Assembly (NCBI RefSeq): GCF_001889405.1
Contig: NZ_CP017921.1
Span: 1,936,057-2,000,056, forward strand
Direction of reading: 5' to 3'
DNA: 64,000 bases
Source of the DNA: Methanohalophilus halophilus
GTDB lineage: Archaea; Halobacteriota; Methanosarcinia; Methanosarcinales; Methanosarcinaceae
Of this stretch, positions 33,374 through 42,800 are shown piece by piece. The notes below the pieces were generated by a model that worked only from the letters and a program-made list of their open reading frames with translations, did no database searches and was not told where the DNA came from. The translations under genes were made by a program, and so were the position numbers. Every line of letters starts with the position of its first letter. The first letter of the stretch is position 1.

Positions 33374-33450
33374 GGGCCCGTGGTCTAGCCGGTTATGACA
33401 TCGCCTTTACACGGCGAGGATCCTGAGTTCGAATCTCAGCGGGCCCACCA
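33374..33450 (+). tRNA. tRNA-Val (UAC), integration target
   Basis: Forward cloverleaf: acceptor GGGCCCG/CGGGCCC, anticodon loop TTTACAC (anticodon UAC), T arm CTGAG-TTCGAAT-CTCAG, discriminator A at 33447, with an encoded CCA at 33448-33450. The other three tRNAs here lack CCA. From 33403 onward it is also attL of the integrated element. A TATA-like box lies at about 33331-33338. Confidence 0.94.
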
Positions 33451-33812
33451 GAATTTTTATCTTCTGATTCTAAGTTCTTAGAGATTACCGTTTCATTAAA
33501 TTCAGACTCGTCTAGATGAGGCGGTGTATTATTGGTAATTATCTCTTTTGATGCTGATTTTTGCAATATGGATAGCTCATTTTCTATTCTTTCAAGCCTT
33601 GATTCAAGGTCAAATTCTCTCTTCGGTCGTACAACTATGGAGTCTTCATCTGTGGATACTACAAACAACGTTTTTCCATTAATATCAGTCTCAAAAACAT
33701 GTGCTTGCTCACCAATTAAATGCGCATGTGACGTGGGCAACTGCACCATAGGGTACGCTATATTCGGCTTTGGAGTGTTCTTTATTATCTTGAATGAGCC
33801 AATTAATTTCAT
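33393..33812 (-). pseudogene. Integrase N-terminal fragment, int(N), split by integration
   Basis: 139 codons on the minus strand running into the antisense strand of the tRNA, where the frame ends with a short peptide ('AEIRTQDPRRVKA') encoded by attL. The real integrase portion (residues ~1-120) has a small β-rich N-domain ('HVFETDINGKTLFVVST'), a coiled coil ('DLESRLERIENELSILQ') and a polar linker. In the excised circle it would continue in frame across the att site into the catalytic part now at 38225-39088. It is closely similar to a second fragment at 39089-39336. Confidence 0.8.
33403..33452 (+). repeat. attL (tRNA-Val 3' half)
   Basis: 50-base segment running from the anticodon loop through the tRNA end, identical to 39089-39138. 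It completes the functional tRNA gene. Confidence 0.9.
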
Positions 33813-33857
33813 TATGCAGCATGCGTTGACCCCAATAACCTAATAGATTGCAGCGAT

Positions 33858-34361
33858 ATGGAAATAGAAGGACGCCTGAAGCAGCTAACTATTCCATTAT
33901 CGTTAACGCTGCAACTACTGCCCGATGGAGAAGAACGGTCCAAGGATTACATAGCCCGCCGGCAAAATGAGGTCAAGGGAGTGCGTTCTCAATCATGGGA
34001 AGGAGCGATTTTTAATTACGTATTTGCCCTTGCGAAAGGTGAAGATGAACCGCATCCTGACTTTGCTCAATATTCTACGGATGATGGGATTGCGGCTGTC
34101 ACGCCTTCAATGGTTGCGAAACATTTTGGGGCGAGCACTAAAGCGATATCACAGGCCTTAGGGAGCATAGGAATGACGACTGAACAAACAACCGTGAGAC
34201 TGCAAACAGGATCAAAGAAAATCCGCCAGTATGTTGTCCCCGATGAAAACATCTGGCGAGGAATTGTCCAACGGTACTATTACACGGATGAAGAGTTGGA
34301 GGATAAAAATCCAGAGTGCCCTGAAGTGTTGAAATCAAGGAGGTACGGAATAGGGATGTGA
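33858..34361 (+). CDS. Winged-helix protein of the integrated element
   Basis: 167 residues. Residues ~75-145 look like a winged-helix domain ('VTPSMVAKHFGASTKAISQALGSIG', partial, then 'KKIRQYVVPDENIW'), similar in style to the C-terminal domains of archaeal plasmid/virus replication or primase proteins. No catalytic motif is present, so it is either a stand-alone DNA-binding protein (replication or copy control) or the tail of a lost replication gene. It is the only forward-strand gene in the element and lies between int(N) and the first long repeat. Confidence 0.6.
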   Translation: MEIEGRLKQLTIPLSLTLQLLPDGEERSKDYIARRQNEVKGVRSQSWEGAIFNYVFALAKGEDEPHPDFAQYSTDDGIAAVTPSMVAKHFGASTKAISQALGSIGMTTEQTTVRLQTGSKKIRQYVVPDENIWRGIVQRYYYTDEELEDKNPECPEVLKSRRYGIGM

Positions 34362-34530
34362 AATGGAACAGGTGGCACGGAAGGAACACTTCCTAGGAGG
34401 ATAGAGGTAGAAGGCATAGGACACTTCTACCTTTATATTAATATCATGATTTGATAATAATACATTGTACTACTTACGTCATGCATCACACTGTATAGAT
34501 ATGAAGTGTTCTAACCGTTCTATGTGTTCC
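34362..34530 (+). repeat. Long direct repeat R1 flanking the nuclease/ATPase cassette
   Basis: 169 bases similar along the whole length to 38049-38215. The longest exact shared run is 24 bases (34428-34451 with 38115-38138), and an 18-base run ends both copies. It contains a 7-bp inverted repeat (GTAGAAG/CTTCTAC). It lies just after the stop of the nuclease-like gene. It could be a MITE-like unit, an origin iteron region or a recombination seam. Confidence 0.8.
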
Positions 34531-34532
34531 TT

Positions 34533-36068
34533 TTAAACTGAATTTTGCTGATCGAAACCATTTTCAGCTAAACTCTCTTTCATAAATTTATTTTGAAAAT
34601 GTTTTGATACTTTTTTTCGACGCCGATTAATAATGCTTAATGACTTTGAAGACAAACCACTTCTATCATATTTACGAATTAAATTTAATTCATTTTCTAA
34701 CCAGATTGGTATGCAATATTCTGCTCTTTTTTCTTTGAACTTATCCCATCCAAAATCATTACACATCAAATTAATATTATGAACTTTTGGAGCTTTTAGC
34801 ATATTAGGAATAATTGGATCCATACAGTAAAGTAACCAAGACTCAGGCTCATCAGTATGTTTTAAAGATTCAACAGACCTTACATAAGAAAAATAATCAA
34901 ATAATATAGAAGGCGTTGTAGTTACTTCAAGTAAAAAGATAAAATCTATGATTGATCCAATCCAGATATTTTCGCCGTGCCACGTCTCTTCTTTATTTTC
35001 TAATTTTAAATAATTTAGATGCTCAATTGAAGCTCGAATCAATGGACTATAAATTTGATCTGTTATGATAAATCCATAATAATATTTTTTGGGCTTGACT
35101 TTGTATTCTATATCGTCGTGTAGAATGATTCCGCCTTTTGACAATAAAACTAAAGGTTGCTTTATTTGTTCAAATGCTTTAGAAATATTTTTCTTAGCAG
35201 CACGGTTTAAACTTCGTTCGGATCCACCGTAAGTCGATTTTTTAATCTGAAGCGATTTGCATTCAACACAGAAGCCCATTTCTTTGGATTCAATTAATAA
35301 GTCTTTTTCACCATCATTATTTTTGATATAGTAGCTGTGATATAAATCTGAATGAGGTGTGAATTGTTTTAATTTCTGTTCAATAAGCAATTCAATAGAA
35401 TGACCTTTTATATGACCAAAATCACGAACATTGTCTTTTAACTTTTTGCATAGATATGTATATGCACTTTCTGGAAATTTGCGAAATAGAGGAATAACAA
35501 AATCATCTTCCACTTGAACAAACATTTTATCCCATACATCTTCTAAATATTCAATGTCAGAAAGTTTTATTGTTAAATCACTAATTAAAAAACGTAGATT
35601 CGCAGGAATAGCTATTTCAGCATAATTCTCATTAACTGTTTCATATTGCAAAGATAAGTATTCAACAAAATGAAATACTTCTTCAATTGTGACTTCAAAA
35701 AGTGACTCAAATTCCTCATTAAATGGTTCCAGTATTTCAGCGTATAATGGAATTGAATACCAATAAGGCCTAATACCTTGCACTATACCAAAACGATTGA
35801 AGGGGAATGTATTATTAGGTCTTGAATTTAAAATATCAGAACATTCTTTCATTATACTTTGGAACTGTTCAGATGAAATTTCAGAATTATTTCCTGTTTC
35901 GCAGATTGAAAACGAGCAAAATAAAACATCATAATCTACTGTTGAATAGGTACCATCAAATGAGCGACTTTTAGCTAGAATTGCTCTTATTGTATAGTTA
36001 GAGAGGAATGTTGGCAATTCTGAAGATAATACTGCTTTTTTGAACCAATTTTTCTTCTTTGAACTCAT
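34533..36068 (-). CDS. PD-(D/E)XK nuclease-like protein of the element cassette
   Basis: 511 residues, no known full-length family recognised. Its centre carries a restriction-nuclease-type core: E226 in 'HSIELLIEQKL', D256 in 'GEKDLLIES' and E269-x-K271 in 'GFCVECKSL', with the β-strand spacing expected of PD-(D/E)XK enzymes. The ~220-residue N-terminal and ~200-residue C-terminal regions are helical and unassigned. No membrane spans. It lies 192 bases downstream of the ATPase gene on the same strand, and both sit between two long repeats. A DNA-targeting effector in a defence or element-competition system is the working idea. Confidence 0.6.
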   Translation of the reverse strand: MSSKKKNWFKKAVLSSELPTFLSNYTIRAILAKSRSFDGTYSTVDYDVLFCSFSICETGNNSEISSEQFQSIMKECSDILNSRPNNTFPFNRFGIVQGIRPYWYSIPLYAEILEPFNEEFESLFEVTIEEVFHFVEYLSLQYETVNENYAEIAIPANLRFLISDLTIKLSDIEYLEDVWDKMFVQVEDDFVIPLFRKFPESAYTYLCKKLKDNVRDFGHIKGHSIELLIEQKLKQFTPHSDLYHSYYIKNNDGEKDLLIESKEMGFCVECKSLQIKKSTYGGSERSLNRAAKKNISKAFEQIKQPLVLLSKGGIILHDDIEYKVKPKKYYYGFIITDQIYSPLIRASIEHLNYLKLENKEETWHGENIWIGSIIDFIFLLEVTTTPSILFDYFSYVRSVESLKHTDEPESWLLYCMDPIIPNMLKAPKVHNINLMCNDFGWDKFKEKRAEYCIPIWLENELNLIRKYDRSGLSSKSLSIINRRRKKVSKHFQNKFMKESLAENGFDQQNSV

Positions 36069-36260
36069 TTCACTTCATCCATATATTACTACATAATACC
36101 AACATACATTGAAGAATAAACAAAAGTACACATAAGAAGTTTTCTAGATGTCCCTATTTTAGTTTAAGTGAACTGAAAAAGTATCAGACTTTTGCCTGAA
36201 TCATACCCTCTAGTTTCAACTGAAGAATCACAAATATAGATTCTACCATGATTTTTTAAT

Positions 36261-37838
36261 TCAAAAATCAAATAATGTCTTCTGCTGAGTATCAAACATC
36301 TTTTCAGAAAATTTTGTGCCTGTACTTTTGCTTTCTTTAGAACATATGTGGCAGATTTTTTTATCGCTTTTATCCCAATCCCTAAATAAATCAGCACCAC
36401 AATTAGGACATTTTCGGTATTTTGAATTTAGGAATTCTTCTATAGATAACTCTGGAAAAATGCATTTTGCAATTGTAATATCGCTTATACAATATTTATT
36501 TACAGGCTTTTTTCTCCCTTTTTCTTTACCTATATTCTCAATAATTCCAAGATCAGACCATCTTTTTATTTTAGATCTTACAGTATCTTGTTTACATTTA
36601 TATACATCATTTGCTAGGTAATTTATAGTGAATTCAACTTGACCAATTTTCCTTAATTCTCTGAGTGTACTAATGTCAACAATTTCACTTGCTTTGGTTT
36701 GTGTAAAAATATCAATTCCTTTCATAATTGCAGAAGAAGAAATTTTTCGAGCATATGGATTGATTTCTCTTTGTTCTGCTATGATATCTTGAATTATTCT
36801 AATCACATCACGCGGTGATTTCTGGGCGAATAAAATGATAATAGAATTAATATCAATATTAAAATCATAATTTACGATATCTGAAAAGTCATTAATTCTA
36901 TTGTTACTATATGCTTCAAGTCTTTTAGAAACCATCTTTTTTAAAGAGAAATTATCCCAACTAAGACTATGATGTTTTATGCGATCTTTTCGACCATACT
37001 TATCATAATATCGCATTAATTTATCCCATAGGAAAAATTTAAAACTGTAGCCATTCATTTCAAGTAAATCTAAATCTTTTAACAATGGCTCGACTAGTTT
37101 TGATGATAAATTAGCATCATTTCCAGTTATATCAGCTTCATCAACTTTGTCAATTAATATATATATGCCGGAAAAATCTATTTTGGAAATTATATTTTGC
37201 ATTTTTTCTAACTGGTACTTATACGATCCATCAAGTGCTTCAGAAATTGGATCTTGATTTGTGTTTTCAGTGTTTACTCCTAACTTTAAAACTGCTAGAT
37301 TAATCCCAACACTAATTTTTCCGAGATATTTATTCCAGTATTCTTTTGCTTTATCAGAATAATTAGATAAAGAATCAATTGCATCCTTAAAATCATACTC
37401 AGATATCTGACCTAAATGAACATCTATTGAATTTTTCAGGAACTGCCTGTCATTTGAATCTAAATGTCCAATGAGTTGCGGTTCTTCGTTTAATCTTGTC
37501 AATATACCAATAATGATGATTTGAATAAGTTTTCTCAGGTGGTCAGAAACAGTGATTGACTGAATATCTTTCGAAAATTCAAACCTAGAGTAATTAACAC
37601 AAAGAACATTCTTACTTCTTTGACTTTCAAATTCAATCATCTTTCTTTGAGCTGTTTTCCCCCCGCCTCTTGGAGCAAAAACAATTACACTTTTAGGTCT
37701 TTCTGGATTTCCCCATACAGAGTCAAAATATTTAGGCCGGATGAAATATTGATTTAATCTATCTTCATCATCTGCATTTGTAGATGCAAAAGGATTTGAG
37801 TCAAAACCTAAACCATTAAAAAAATCTATTTCGTCCAT
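36261..37838 (-). CDS. P-loop ATPase (Sll1717-like) with winged helix and zinc ribbon
   Basis: 525 residues. Walker A 'APRGGGKT' at 55-62, Walker B 'IYILIDKVDE' at 225-234 and an AAA+-like sensor/arginine segment 'SPRDVIRI' at 341-348. Residues ~395-440 look like a winged-helix reader. A C4 zinc ribbon follows (C477, C480, C496, C499). The Walker A and overall order resemble the 'Sll1717-family P-loop ATPase' group, related to STAND/AAA ATPases found in many uncharacterised defence loci. With the nuclease-like protein it makes a plausible sensor-ATPase plus effector pair. Confidence 0.75.
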   Translation of the reverse strand: MDEIDFFNGLGFDSNPFASTNADDEDRLNQYFIRPKYFDSVWGNPERPKSVIVFAPRGGGKTAQRKMIEFESQRSKNVLCVNYSRFEFSKDIQSITVSDHLRKLIQIIIIGILTRLNEEPQLIGHLDSNDRQFLKNSIDVHLGQISEYDFKDAIDSLSNYSDKAKEYWNKYLGKISVGINLAVLKLGVNTENTNQDPISEALDGSYKYQLEKMQNIISKIDFSGIYILIDKVDEADITGNDANLSSKLVEPLLKDLDLLEMNGYSFKFFLWDKLMRYYDKYGRKDRIKHHSLSWDNFSLKKMVSKRLEAYSNNRINDFSDIVNYDFNIDINSIIILFAQKSPRDVIRIIQDIIAEQREINPYARKISSSAIMKGIDIFTQTKASEIVDISTLRELRKIGQVEFTINYLANDVYKCKQDTVRSKIKRWSDLGIIENIGKEKGRKKPVNKYCISDITIAKCIFPELSIEEFLNSKYRKCPNCGADLFRDWDKSDKKICHICSKESKSTGTKFSEKMFDTQQKTLFDF

Positions 37839-38048
37839 TTAACTACCTGATATTATTTCGAAGTGCTAATGTAAATGCCAGTCAATTATATTTAAATCTT
37901 CCAATACAGGCCTCAGTAGAAAATTCTAAATCAAAGATTTGCTATTTTCAAAAATAGCCCATAAATACTTTGTCTGCTCTACTTTAGCTATATAGTTTGC
38001 GTATTCGAATGAAATCAGCTAATCTTTAAACAATAGATAATCAAATAC
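37839..38048. promoter_or_regulatory. AT-rich upstream region of the ATPase/nuclease cassette
   Basis: 210 bases before the ATPase start (minus strand), followed on the left by the cassette. It is AT-rich with several TATA-like stretches and should hold the cassette promoter. I see no gene or clear operator. Repeat R2 begins at its right end. Confidence 0.35.
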
Positions 38049-38215
38049 AATGGAACAGATGATACACATGGAACAGTTGCTAAGAATACAGAGGTAGAAT
38101 GCATGGTACACTTTTACCTTTATATTAATATCATGATTAGATTATAATACATCACTGCTCACATCATGCATCACACTGTACAGATATGATCTGCTCCAAC
38201 CGTTCTATGTGTTCC
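38049..38215 (+). repeat. Long direct repeat R2 flanking the nuclease/ATPase cassette
   Basis: 167 bases, a diverged copy of 34362-34530 in the same orientation. Within it, CACATGGAACAGTTG (38065-38079) and the complement of 38197-38211 match at 13 of 15 positions, so the unit itself is bounded by inverted repeats, like a MITE. It lies between the integrase C-part and the ATPase promoter. Confidence 0.8.
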
Positions 38216-38224
38216 AATTCTCTC

Positions 38225-39088
38225 CTAGCTTAAAGTTGAATTATCCACTTTGAATTCTAATACAAAACTATCCATAATCCTCCGATACTCTTTTTTTGAT
38301 TGCTGTACTTTATTCAGATAATGAGCACTTCCAACAGTTGCAGATGCTCTTCCCTGTATAAAATCAGCCAAACTTTTAGTAACTCCTTCTCTTATCATTA
38401 CATTGAGGTGCCACTTACGAATTGTTTTTGCTGTGACACGGTCATGTTTTATTTTCTTTAACAACGATTCATATGGTTTCAGATTGCTAATACTTTTGAG
38501 TTCAAGTATGAAAGATGCAGGGAAGAATATCTGAAATGTTCGCTTAGTACCACTTGAAAACGAAGATGTAGGATAATGTGCGATATCGTTATCAATTACT
38601 ATATTTTTCTCATCGAAATTCCCTAACATAGCATGTATGTGGCTGAGTCGATTACCTGAATATATGAGCAATTTCAAGATGGATTTAAGGTCATCTGTGC
38701 AAGCATTATATGCTTCCTGTATTTCCTCATCTGTGACATAAATTTCAACTACACCAGATTTCTTTATTTTGATGTAGCGGCTCCATTTTTCAATGCTATA
38801 TCCTGCGATATCATCTACATCCTCATCTTCAAAGTAGTTCAATAAATTGCGCAATCCACGCCCTTCATTATCTTTTAACTTGAGGCCTCTGAAATCTTGA
38901 GGTCTTTGAATATTTGTATCATTAGGAACCTTGACAATGAATTATAATAATCTCTTTTCGTTGCCTTCGAAATGTCTTTGGCCTGCAACCAAACATAAAA
39001 TGGTTCACTATATTTAGTCCACACATCATTTAGTGATTCCGATGTAGTCTTATGACACTGATTATCTGTGAGAATCGCCATCTGACGA
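38225..39088 (-). pseudogene. Tyrosine integrase C-terminal part, int(C), with frameshift
   Basis: The catalytic half of the element integrase. One frame runs from attR to a premature stop at 38875, containing a SAM-like core-binding start ('YVWLQAKDISKATKRDYYNSLSRF'-type; quoted in part). The second frame continues the same protein from about 38925 to a TAG at 38225. Joining them needs one extra base near 38921-38925. Catalytic residues in the second part (numbered from 38854) are R69 in 'SGNRL', K104 in 'GTKR', R146/H149 in 'IRKWHLNV' and Y179 in 'AHYLN'. It is the only gene here ending in TAG. Confidence 0.8.
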
Positions 39089-39138
39089 GCCTTTACACGG
39101 CGAGGATCCTGAGTTCGAATCTCAGCGGGCCCACCAGA
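39089..39138 (+). repeat. attR (copy of tRNA-Val 3' half)
   Basis: 50 bases identical to 33403-33452; no 5' half of a tRNA precedes it, so it is a footprint of integration, not a tRNA gene. Confidence 0.9.
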
Positions 39139-39336
39139 CTTTTTATCGTCTTCTGATATTGATTTTTCAAGATTGTTAAGCTTATTTTCCAGATATTCCA
39201 CTCTTGTTTCAAGATCAGATTTGGTAGTTGGTTGTATAACTTCTATTTCACTACCAAAATCTTCGTCCAGCGAGATTATGAATAATGGAGTGCCTTTATC
39301 TTTTTGGAGAATAAACATGTACAAAATTATTGTCAC
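39089..39336 (-). pseudogene. Second integrase N-terminal relic beyond attR
   Basis: The frame upstream of attR encodes a shortened paralogue of int(N): 'PLFIISLDEDF' and 'DLETRVEYLENKLNNLEKS' align with 'TLFVVSTDEDS' and 'DLESRLERIENELSILQKS' of the fragment at 33393-33812, and both lead into the same att-encoded peptide. The N-terminal ~45 residues are missing, and its start overlaps the divergent surface-protein gene. It is the int(N) left by an older element that had used the same tRNA before the present one inserted. Confidence 0.75.
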
Positions 39337-40536: not shown

Positions 40537-41094
40537 TTATAGTTGGAGCTTTTTATCCAGCAGTATTTGATTTGAATAGGCACCTATAATCTGCAAACGC
40601 CATTGACCCGAAGGATCGAAATATTCTACACCTCCTTCTGTCACTCTTACCTTATCATTTGTTATCCAAAAATTCCCGTCATAATGATTAAAATAGAAGA
40701 TATAAAATTTTTCGGCTGTTTCGACTTCTTTCCCTGTCATGTATATCGAATTTATAACTTCATGCCTTTCACCAGCGGGGTCGAACAGATATATTTCAGT
40801 GCCTTTTATCCCACTATGCGTTCCCTCCTCATATTCCTGGGATAACTGGTCTCCTGCGGTTTTTTGTAAAATGACAATAGGAATCTCTGGTTCTTCATTA
40901 TTGATTCCCGTTTCAGTTGTTGCTTCAAATGCAGCGAAAGATGGTTTTTGGAGGTCTGTTACATCGGAACTCAAAAATTGAGATCCAACGATTGCTGCCA
41001 GTATTATTGTAATTATCAACATGAGAATAATACCAACGGCAGGTGCAATTCCATCATCCTATTGTGAAGGAAACAAACTGGTAGGCTTTATCAT
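40537..41094 (-). CDS. Pilin-like protein with in-frame amber (candidate pyrrolysine) in its signal peptide
   Basis: Read from ATG 41094, the frame gives 'MIKPTSLFPSQ', a TAG at 41059-41061, then 'DDGIAPAVGIILMLIITIIL' and 150 more residues to TAA (185 residues with the amber read as an amino acid). 'DDGIAPAVG' plus the hydrophobic helix is a classical archaeal type IV pilin/class III signal. Starting at the next ATG (41022) would lose it. A TATA-like box at 41118-41127, about 28 bases before ATG 41094, fits a leaderless mRNA from that ATG. In Pyl-using methanogens TAG can encode pyrrolysine. The alternative is a decayed gene. Confidence 0.6.
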
Positions 41095-41117
41095 ATGAAA
41101 AGAAATACAATTATAAT

Positions 41118-41127
41118 TTATATATTT
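41118..41127 (-). promoter_or_regulatory. TATA-like box of the amber-containing pilin gene
   Basis: AAATATATAA on the minus strand, centred about 28 bases upstream of ATG 41094. The spacing predicts transcription starting at or within a few bases of that ATG. No Shine-Dalgarno is present. Confidence 0.45.
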
Positions 41128-41324
41128 ATTGATATTAGTAAACTGCAGTATACTGTTATTTCTTGTTTTTTACTTTAAAGATATATTGATTATTTTTATA
41201 TCTTAGAATCCAGAAAAAAATCCTTATCCTGTATTCCTTCCTATGCAAAACCACACCATACTTTTGCACAACATGTAAACAGCGTTATATGTTACAATGT
41301 ACATTTATTATGTAAGGGAGATGC

Positions 41325-41981
41325 ATGACATCAGAAGAAGAAATTCTCGGGCAATTATACAAATCCTTTATAGAAAACAATGAAAAAGGAGTATACAGGG
41401 CCATTGATAAGTGGTTTGAAAGGGACTATGGGGAAAAACAACTCCTATTCAAACTTATTGAAGCTCAGGAGGAGATTGCCAGAAGATTTGAAGAAAATGA
41501 ATGTTTCCTTGCCGATTTAATGAAGTCAACAACCATTCTTCAAAAATCCAACAAGCTCATTACTGAAAAAATGGCCAACGAAGGTATTGTTTCTAAAAAC
41601 AAGCCAACTGTAGTCATAGGAACTGTAAAAAATGACACGCATGATCTGGGAAAAAATATTGCTGCATGCAGGCTTCAAATTGCAGGGTTCAAGGTAATTG
41701 ATCTGGGCAGGGATCTGCATACATCAGAAATTGTTGATGCTACAATTAAGAATAAAGCCGCCATACTTGCAGTGTCATCAATGACAAGCATCACAATGGG
41801 CCACCTCAGGGAAATAGTTGAGCTGCTAAAAGAAAAAGGATACAGAGAAAATGTAAAAATAATGGTCAGCGGTGCTCCGGTAACACAGGAATACGCTGAT
41901 AGGATAGGGGCAGATGCGTATGTAAGGACTGCATCAGAAGCCGTGGAAACTGCTGAAAATTTTATAAATCAGAAAAACTGA
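41325..41981 (+). CDS. Methyltransferase cognate corrinoid protein (MtbC/MtaC/MttC family)
   Basis: 218 residues. A four-helix cap domain (~residues 5-90) precedes a Rossmann B12-binding domain with 'DTHDLGKN' (D104, lower-axial H106, G109), then the 'AVSSMTSITMGHLREIV' and 'GADAYVRTASEAVE' segments. Such proteins shuttle a methyl group from a substrate methyltransferase to a CoM methylase in methylotrophic methanogenesis. No mtaB, mtbB, mttB or reactivase is adjacent; only a DUF1638 gene follows. The substrate is therefore open. A GGGAG ribosome site at 41316-41320 precedes the ATG. Confidence 0.93.
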   Translation: MTSEEEILGQLYKSFIENNEKGVYRAIDKWFERDYGEKQLLFKLIEAQEEIARRFEENECFLADLMKSTTILQKSNKLITEKMANEGIVSKNKPTVVIGTVKNDTHDLGKNIAACRLQIAGFKVIDLGRDLHTSEIVDATIKNKAAILAVSSMTSITMGHLREIVELLKEKGYRENVKIMVSGAPVTQEYADRIGADAYVRTASEAVETAENFINQKN

Positions 41982-41996
41982 AAAGGAGACGAAATC

Positions 41997-42800
41997 ATGC
42001 CATCACTATACATTGTTTCCTGTCGCATGTTTGAGGATGAACTGGTACACATATTTGAGGAAGAAAAAAATATTGACCTTCTAATTGTTGAAAATGAAAA
42101 TACAGAAGGTATCGAAAATAAACTAAATGAACATTCCATAAAATACAAAAAAATATCACCGGAAAATATTGATAGAAATCCAGGCAAAAAGGAAGATTTC
42201 ATTGTTGTATTGCATCTTCTGGAATTTGCACTGGATGCCGAACCTTCACTTCTCAAAGATAAAGTCTACAGGACTATTGAGGAAAACGGAAAATACTTTG
42301 ATGGCATCCTTGTTTTTTACGGCCTGTGTGGCAATGTTCTTGGTTCACTCGAAGAAGATTTTGCCTACCTCAATATTCCAGTACGAATTCTCAAGGATGC
42401 TTACGGAAATGTAGTAGACGACTGTATATGTGCTGCATTCGGCAACAGGGAATCCTACATGGAAGCAATGCAGGGAGATGAAAGAGGAGAAGGGACATAC
42501 TTCCTTACACCAATGCAGGCAGCTAACTGGAGAGAAATGCTTGTCCTCGCAAAACTTACACCTGATCCCAACGATATTGAAATGACTAAAACTGTTTTTG
42601 ATTATTCCGGCTATAAAAATGTAGGGAAAGTCGACACAGGTTTGCACTATGAGAAGGATTTCGAAAACACAGTTGAAGAATTTGCTACACTCTTTGGTTT
42701 CAAAAAACGTATATTTACCGGTTCCACGAAAATTACTGATCAGAATTATCATTCAATAAAGAATGATATACTTAAAAAAAGTGGACAGTTCGAAATCTAA
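41997..42800 (+). CDS. DUF1638 protein linked to the corrinoid protein
   Basis: 267 residues, 15 bases after the corrinoid gene with AAAAGGAG at 41981-41988, so the two are co-expressed. It matches DUF1638 in overall pattern: 'YIVSCRMFEDELVHI' at the start, 'GILVFYGLCGNVLG' near residue 100, and conserved Cys/His scattered ('VDDCICAAFG', 'YDSGY/DYSGYKNVGKVDTGLHY'). The family is repeatedly found beside methanogen corrinoid proteins but has no established biochemical role. A part in corrinoid methyl transfer or its regulation is inferred from context. Confidence 0.85.
   Translation: MPSLYIVSCRMFEDELVHIFEEEKNIDLLIVENENTEGIENKLNEHSIKYKKISPENIDRNPGKKEDFIVVLHLLEFALDAEPSLLKDKVYRTIEENGKYFDGILVFYGLCGNVLGSLEEDFAYLNIPVRILKDAYGNVVDDCICAAFGNRESYMEAMQGDERGEGTYFLTPMQAANWREMLVLAKLTPDPNDIEMTKTVFDYSGYKNVGKVDTGLHYEKDFENTVEEFATLFGFKKRIFTGSTKITDQNYHSIKNDILKKSGQFEI

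Follow-up and report, generated by a model that had tools for sequence, protein, structure and literature searches.

We propose, with a probability of about 0.8, that a pilin-like gene of Methanohalophilus halophilus, codon 12 of which is an in-frame TAG, is expressed by insertion of pyrrolysine (Pyl) through the ordinary Pyl system, that the Pyl residue is removed with the leader peptide, and that the codon is a recent and neutral, or nearly neutral, acquisition.

The pilin gene and its predicted processing

The type IV pilin-like (Pilin_N) gene occupies positions 40537..41094 on the minus strand of the window, by which we mean the whole stretch of 64,000 nucleotides analysed here, and was defined by its ORF and translation, Pfam and NCBIfam matches and orthologues. 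It comprises 185 codons plus TAA. Beginning with the ATG at 41094, eleven codons (M-I-K-P-T-S-L-F-P-S-Q) lead up to the TAG at 41061-41059, behind which the frame (DDGIAPAVGIILMLIITIILAAIVG...) remains open for 173 codons to the TAA at 40537; the arrangement given in the preliminary description was thus recovered in the same frame. The TATA-like box mentioned there is likewise present, as the candidate sequence TATATAAA (41117..41124, minus strand) spans the bases 30 to 23 before the ATG. With its first base 30 nucleotides upstream, the element fits a leaderless transcript, and the pilin mRNA is probably of this type.

The read-through product of 185 residues matches the Pfam family Pilin_N (PF07790; E 5.8e-10, 40.3 bits compared with a cut-off of 25.2) as well as the NCBIfam profile TIGR02537 for class III N-termini (21.1, cut-off 20). 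Both scores lie above their cut-offs and bear out the earlier claim of a class III pilin signal and a hydrophobic helix after the TAG. The tripeptide DDG followed by IAPAVGIILMLIITIILAAIVG corresponds to the standard archaeal prepilin motif plus helix. According to the TIGR02537 match, which starts at residue 13, and the motif alignment, codons 1-15 (MIKPTSLFPSQ-O-DDG, O being Pyl in the favoured reading; 41050..41094, minus strand) represent a class III leader with predicted removal by prepilin peptidase. Residues 16-41 (40972..41049, minus strand) form the N-terminal hydrophobic helix of the mature pilin, as indicated by the Pfam match and an AlphaFold model. The latter is weak (mean pLDDT 59.8; too poor for a fold search) and places a helix at residues 17-43, followed by strands. 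Cleavage is predicted between D14 and G15 or, by the usual motif with the cut after x-G/A, between G15 and I16. Hence, the residue encoded by TAG would reside at position -3 or -4: it is close upstream of the processing site, as had been suggested, but not directly adjacent to the cut. A prepilin peptidase of the A24 type (PF01478) is encoded in the genome (C1:1450590, above cut-off), whereas a profile search of the genome found no member of the EppA family (PF06819).

Capacity of the genome to decode TAG

The M. halophilus genome (G000) is a single contig of 2,022,959 bp and 99.97% complete. It encodes a tRNA-Pyl with the anticodon CUA (L049:10819-10890), followed by PylS, PylB, PylC and PylD, each an equivalog match above its curated cut-off. 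The pylTSBCD set, the absence of which would speak against Pyl, is therefore intact. A review describes Methanohalophilus as devoid of a Pyl system (PMC8211752); the genome sequence contradicts this statement. For another member of the genus, M. portucalensis, mass spectrometry has revealed Pyl in MttB (PMC4928046).

Stop codon usage was counted over 1.2 Mb each of the M. halophilus genome and that of a congener, G003. Non-overlapping ORFs with 150 or more amino acids number 941 in M. halophilus and 897 in G003; in either genome 11 of them terminate with TAG (~1% in M. halophilus, TAA and TGA accounting for the rest). Since 17.7% of all stop triplets occurring in the sequence are TAG, its deficit at ORF ends is extreme (P about 2e-62). 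Among the 14 TAG-ended ORFs of at least 100 amino acids, several are mtmB, mtbB, mttB or other read-through genes, the three names being those that we presume from reading the sequences. The ORFs that seemingly end in TAG but continue include those of an AMP-dependent ligase and of an AAA/OLD-like ATPase. For Methanosarcinales in general, the ratio of TGA to TAG stops has been described as very high (PMC10471768).

Termination at TAG may nonetheless still be possible in places, as pylB of G003 (C1:1214878-1215939, minus strand) ends in TAG; read-through would add 39 residues. The same ending occurs in pylB of several Methanosarcinaceae and possibly serves self-regulation (PMC2933860).

Orthologues and the translation start

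Among 112 genomes of the family, only two pilin orthologues were identified, one in G003 (85% protein identity) and one in G012, which belongs to another genus (53%). Of the 8 Methanohalophilus species genomes, 2 carry the gene, and a separate search of genome contigs for loci related to the pilin locus returned no relatives. The G003 orthologue begins with the same ATG (MIKPASLFPSKSDDGIAPAIG), is stop-free and retains both leader and helix. Aligned with it, the TAG of M. halophilus has coding sequence on either side, that of the leader amounting to only 11 codons. Its start codon is the upstream one and not, as would count against the preliminary description, an ATG downstream of the TAG. The 49 nucleotides immediately 5' of the pilin ATG (41095..41143, minus strand), which contain the promoter region, are identical in M. 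halophilus and G003, while the flank farther upstream diverges. When 28 distinct pilin motifs of M. halophilus and related genomes were surveyed, this one alone had no ATG, GTG or TTG in the interval that separates it from the preceding stop. Judged from the shared start, the identical 49-nucleotide promoter and 5' flank and the 85% protein identity, the ATG at 41094 is the true start.

Between the two Methanohalophilus genes, Ka/Ks amounts to 0.27 for the whole sequence, to 0.31 for the helix and to 0.255 for the part that follows the helix. When G012 serves as outgroup, 8 lineage-unique residue changes fall on the M. halophilus branch and 9 on that of G003, and the pilin frame contains no frameshift or second stop. 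On the strength of the low Ka/Ks and the lack of excess change in the M. halophilus lineage, the pilin coding region is, as far as substitution patterns can tell, under purifying selection and not a decaying pseudogene.

Interior TAG codons in other genes

M. halophilus and G003 were compared gene by gene for interior stops at which mismatches favour the third codon position in each flank, either flank comprising 50 codons or more. Three TAG codons, and no TAA or TGA, passed this two-sided coding test. They are situated in an AMP-dependent ligase of M. halophilus (CAA in G003) and, in G003, in a 396-residue gene and a GNAT acetyltransferase (TAT and CGG, respectively, in M. halophilus). In the AMP-dependent ligase (538 residues; G000:C1:1524868-1526040, minus strand), the TAG at 1524918 is codon 372 and is flanked by strongly coding sequence on either side. 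The ligase is better conserved than the pilin and is a good test case for Pyl; its copy in genome G005 holds an internal TAA. In G003, DinB and a sulfotransferase are read through TAG into conserved domains; the TAG of DinB (DNA polymerase IV; G003:C1:1301883-1302590, plus strand, and onward) is codon 236 of 363 and has Pfam domains before and after it. The AAA/OLD-like ATPase of M. halophilus (597 residues; G000:C1:1027104-1028462, plus strand, and onward) has its TAG at codon 453.

An amber codon, proposed to encode Pyl, is also known from the citrate synthase of M. mahii (PMC3017947), and we find a single TAG within a full-length Pfam match to citrate synthase in genome G007. Full-length copies exist in G003, G006 and G007 (the latter with the TAG); in M. 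halophilus only the last 49 profile positions are left (G000:C1:203334-203480).

Several candidates were discarded. A TAG at position 1924735 of M. halophilus, considered as a second case, lies in a spurious frame, with mismatches peaking at codon position 1. Most 'interior' TAA and TGA codons of the two-genome comparison precede the true start, fall within a few codons of the gene end or belong to incorrect frames. Counts of long read-through ORFs by stop type irrespective of homology yielded no information, as they were dominated by tandem genes.

Origin of the TAG codon

The TAG at codon 12 (41059..41061, minus strand) corresponds to TCT (Ser) in G003, where codon 11 is Lys, and aligns with Asp in G012. 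Neither of these two orthologues, the only ones among the 112 family genomes, shares the TAG; in neutral cases such as Thg1 of M. acetivorans, conservation of the codon is not a prerequisite. The preliminary description had suggested that Pyl takes the place of the Lys or Arg usual in archaeal pilins, and had proposed a comparison of orthologues for Lys, Arg or TAG at this codon. The Ser and Asp residues do not support a stand-in for a conserved Lys or Arg, and Lys or Arg right before the DD pair is confined to part of the surveyed pilins (KDD/RDD-type). At five of the nine positions around the TAG, M. halophilus and G003 have different bases, and the leader stretch in this region seems free to vary. 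The best reading of these alignments is that the TAG is recent and lineage-specific.

The bases do not favour the paralogous pilin at 650 kb as a donor of the TAG by gene conversion (differing sites 6 versus 4 of 14). A PYLIS hairpin at the pilin TAG received no clear support: the sequence after the codon folds with z = -2.3 in M. halophilus and about equally well in the TAG-less G003 orthologue (z = -1.6), so that no PYLIS-like structure appears specific to the TAG allele. PYLIS-like elements have been reported as dispensable (PMC8211752).

Genomic neighbourhood

The pilin gene adjoins, but is not part of, an integrated element of the SSV/archaeal-virus type (window 33403-39151). The 63-nucleotide direct repeats of the element (97%) consist of the 3' half of a tRNA-Val (33374-33450) and a copy at 39089-39151, and it includes an integrase of the archaeal phage type (PF16795), the gene of which is split across 38225-39336, together with an ORC/CDC6-like protein and an unknown protein of 511 residues. 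Divergently from the pilin, the region 41325-42800 (plus strand) encodes a corrinoid protein (MtbC/pyl_corrinoid-like, below curated cut-offs) and a DUF1638 protein. A paralogous pilin with a nearly identical helix is located at G000:C1:650378-650518 (L050:10205-10389), directly preceded by a second pilin-like frame with a stop in mid-helix.

Alternative explanations

The TAG might terminate translation after 11 residues and thus represent a recent null allele, leaving the pilin silent in this strain. This would agree with the lack of TAG in both orthologues, with the dispensability of the gene in the genus (2 of 8 species genomes) and with the stop-broken related pilin beside the 650-kb paralogue. 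We consider it unlikely, however, as frame, helix and C-terminal domain are fully conserved, with neither a frameshift nor excess change, and as TAG is scarcely a stop here and is found in the interior of other intact genes. Excess change should be visible in a null allele that has existed for some time, though not in a very recent one. Alternatively, the codon could act as a translational gate that yields pre-pilin only when Pyl-tRNA is abundant, as during growth on methylamines, with Pyl then shed along with the leader, so that the codon would be a supply sensor. An early amber codon would indeed tie yield to suppression efficiency, its leader position imposes no cost on the mature protein, the divergently oriented neighbour encodes a corrinoid protein akin to MtbC and Pyl-associated corrinoid proteins, and UAG decoding in Acetohalobium varies with the growth substrate (PMC8211752). 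Such a gate would couple a surface appendage to methylamine metabolism with no Pyl in the mature pilin. Yet the congener has no TAG despite the conserved promoter and leader, the codon occurs in one species only with no sign of selection for a gate, and interior TAGs in unrelated genes point to constitutive decoding, which makes this explanation rather improbable. More generally, a role for Pyl itself, be it as lysine mimic or as translational gate, is not supported.

Two further explanations question the codon or the start. Several sense codons are one base away from TAG, so an error in sequencing or assembly is conceivable; it appears very improbable in a single-contig, 99.97% complete genome with an intact pilin frame, and the five differences from G003 indicate a truly divergent site and not a single miscall in an otherwise identical codon. 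Translation could also start past the TAG, either at the first in-frame ATG, codon 25 (41020..41022, minus strand), which opens a 161-residue ORF if TAG is a stop, or at a non-standard start, the first 11 codons then being noncoding. The ATG at 41022 is located in mid-helix, however, and its use would abolish the class III motif; the interval between TAG and motif holds no ATG, GTG or TTG; and upstream ATG, leader and promoter are conserved, in frame and stop-free in G003. We regard a downstream start as highly unlikely.

Proposed mechanism and comparison with known systems

The preliminary suggestion of a candidate Pyl-containing pre-protein is upheld by the pyl genes, the scarcity of TAG stops, the genes with interior TAG, the start shared with G003 and the absence of relaxed selection. 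According to our favoured model of Pyl insertion, tRNA-Pyl (CUA), PylS and PylBCD would decode codon 12 without a special mRNA signal, and insertion would be efficient enough for useful amounts of pre-pilin. In M. acetivorans, amber codons in a reporter give no more than 20-30% read-through (PMC2933860), and the pilin yield may accordingly be low. The A24-type prepilin peptidase is predicted to cut 3-4 residues past Pyl, which would be lost with the leader to give a Pyl-free mature pilin; provided that processing is normal, Pyl is irrelevant to the mature protein. The TAG probably arose recently, through a small number of substitutions where the leader is variable; its role would be neutral or nearly so. 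It persists, we suggest, because TAG is a sense codon in this genome.

If correct, the pilin is a clear case of a Pyl codon outside methylamine metabolism, in a part of a protein that is later removed. It is accompanied by evidence that, throughout the genome, TAG is tolerated as a sense codon in Methanohalophilus but hardly serves as a stop; standard annotation would mis-start or miss such genes. The pilin TAG also offers a simple system in which to ask if the amber codons of Pyl-using archaea are neutral passengers or can take part in gene regulation.

The protein resembles archaeal type IV pilins (Pilin_N PF07790, FlaFind-type prepilins) in its class III leader, conserved hydrophobic helix and beta-rich C-terminal part, but the other surveyed pilins have a start codon after the last stop, whereas here the TAG lies inside the leader. 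With MtmB, MtbB and MttB, which are present in this genome, it would share decoding by the same pylTSBCD system; their Pyl is catalytic and the codon conserved, in contrast to a pilin Pyl that is neither conserved nor part of the mature protein. The citrate synthase of M. mahii (PMC3017947) is likewise an ordinary gene of the same genus with a single TAG and a proposed Pyl, although in the middle of a metabolic enzyme and not in a surface protein. Another parallel is Thg1 (tRNA-His guanylyltransferase) of M. acetivorans, a non-methyltransferase gene with an in-frame TAG gained in one species alone, which is translated as Pyl and not needed for activity (PMC2933860). The Pyl of Thg1 is observed and retained, whereas that of the pilin is predicted from sequence and would be cleaved off. 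A broader counterpart is formed by archaea with genome-wide use of TAG for Pyl. A recent proteomics study reportedly found TAG to be rare as a stop in these archaea and Pyl to be present in numerous ordinary proteins, features that M. halophilus would share.
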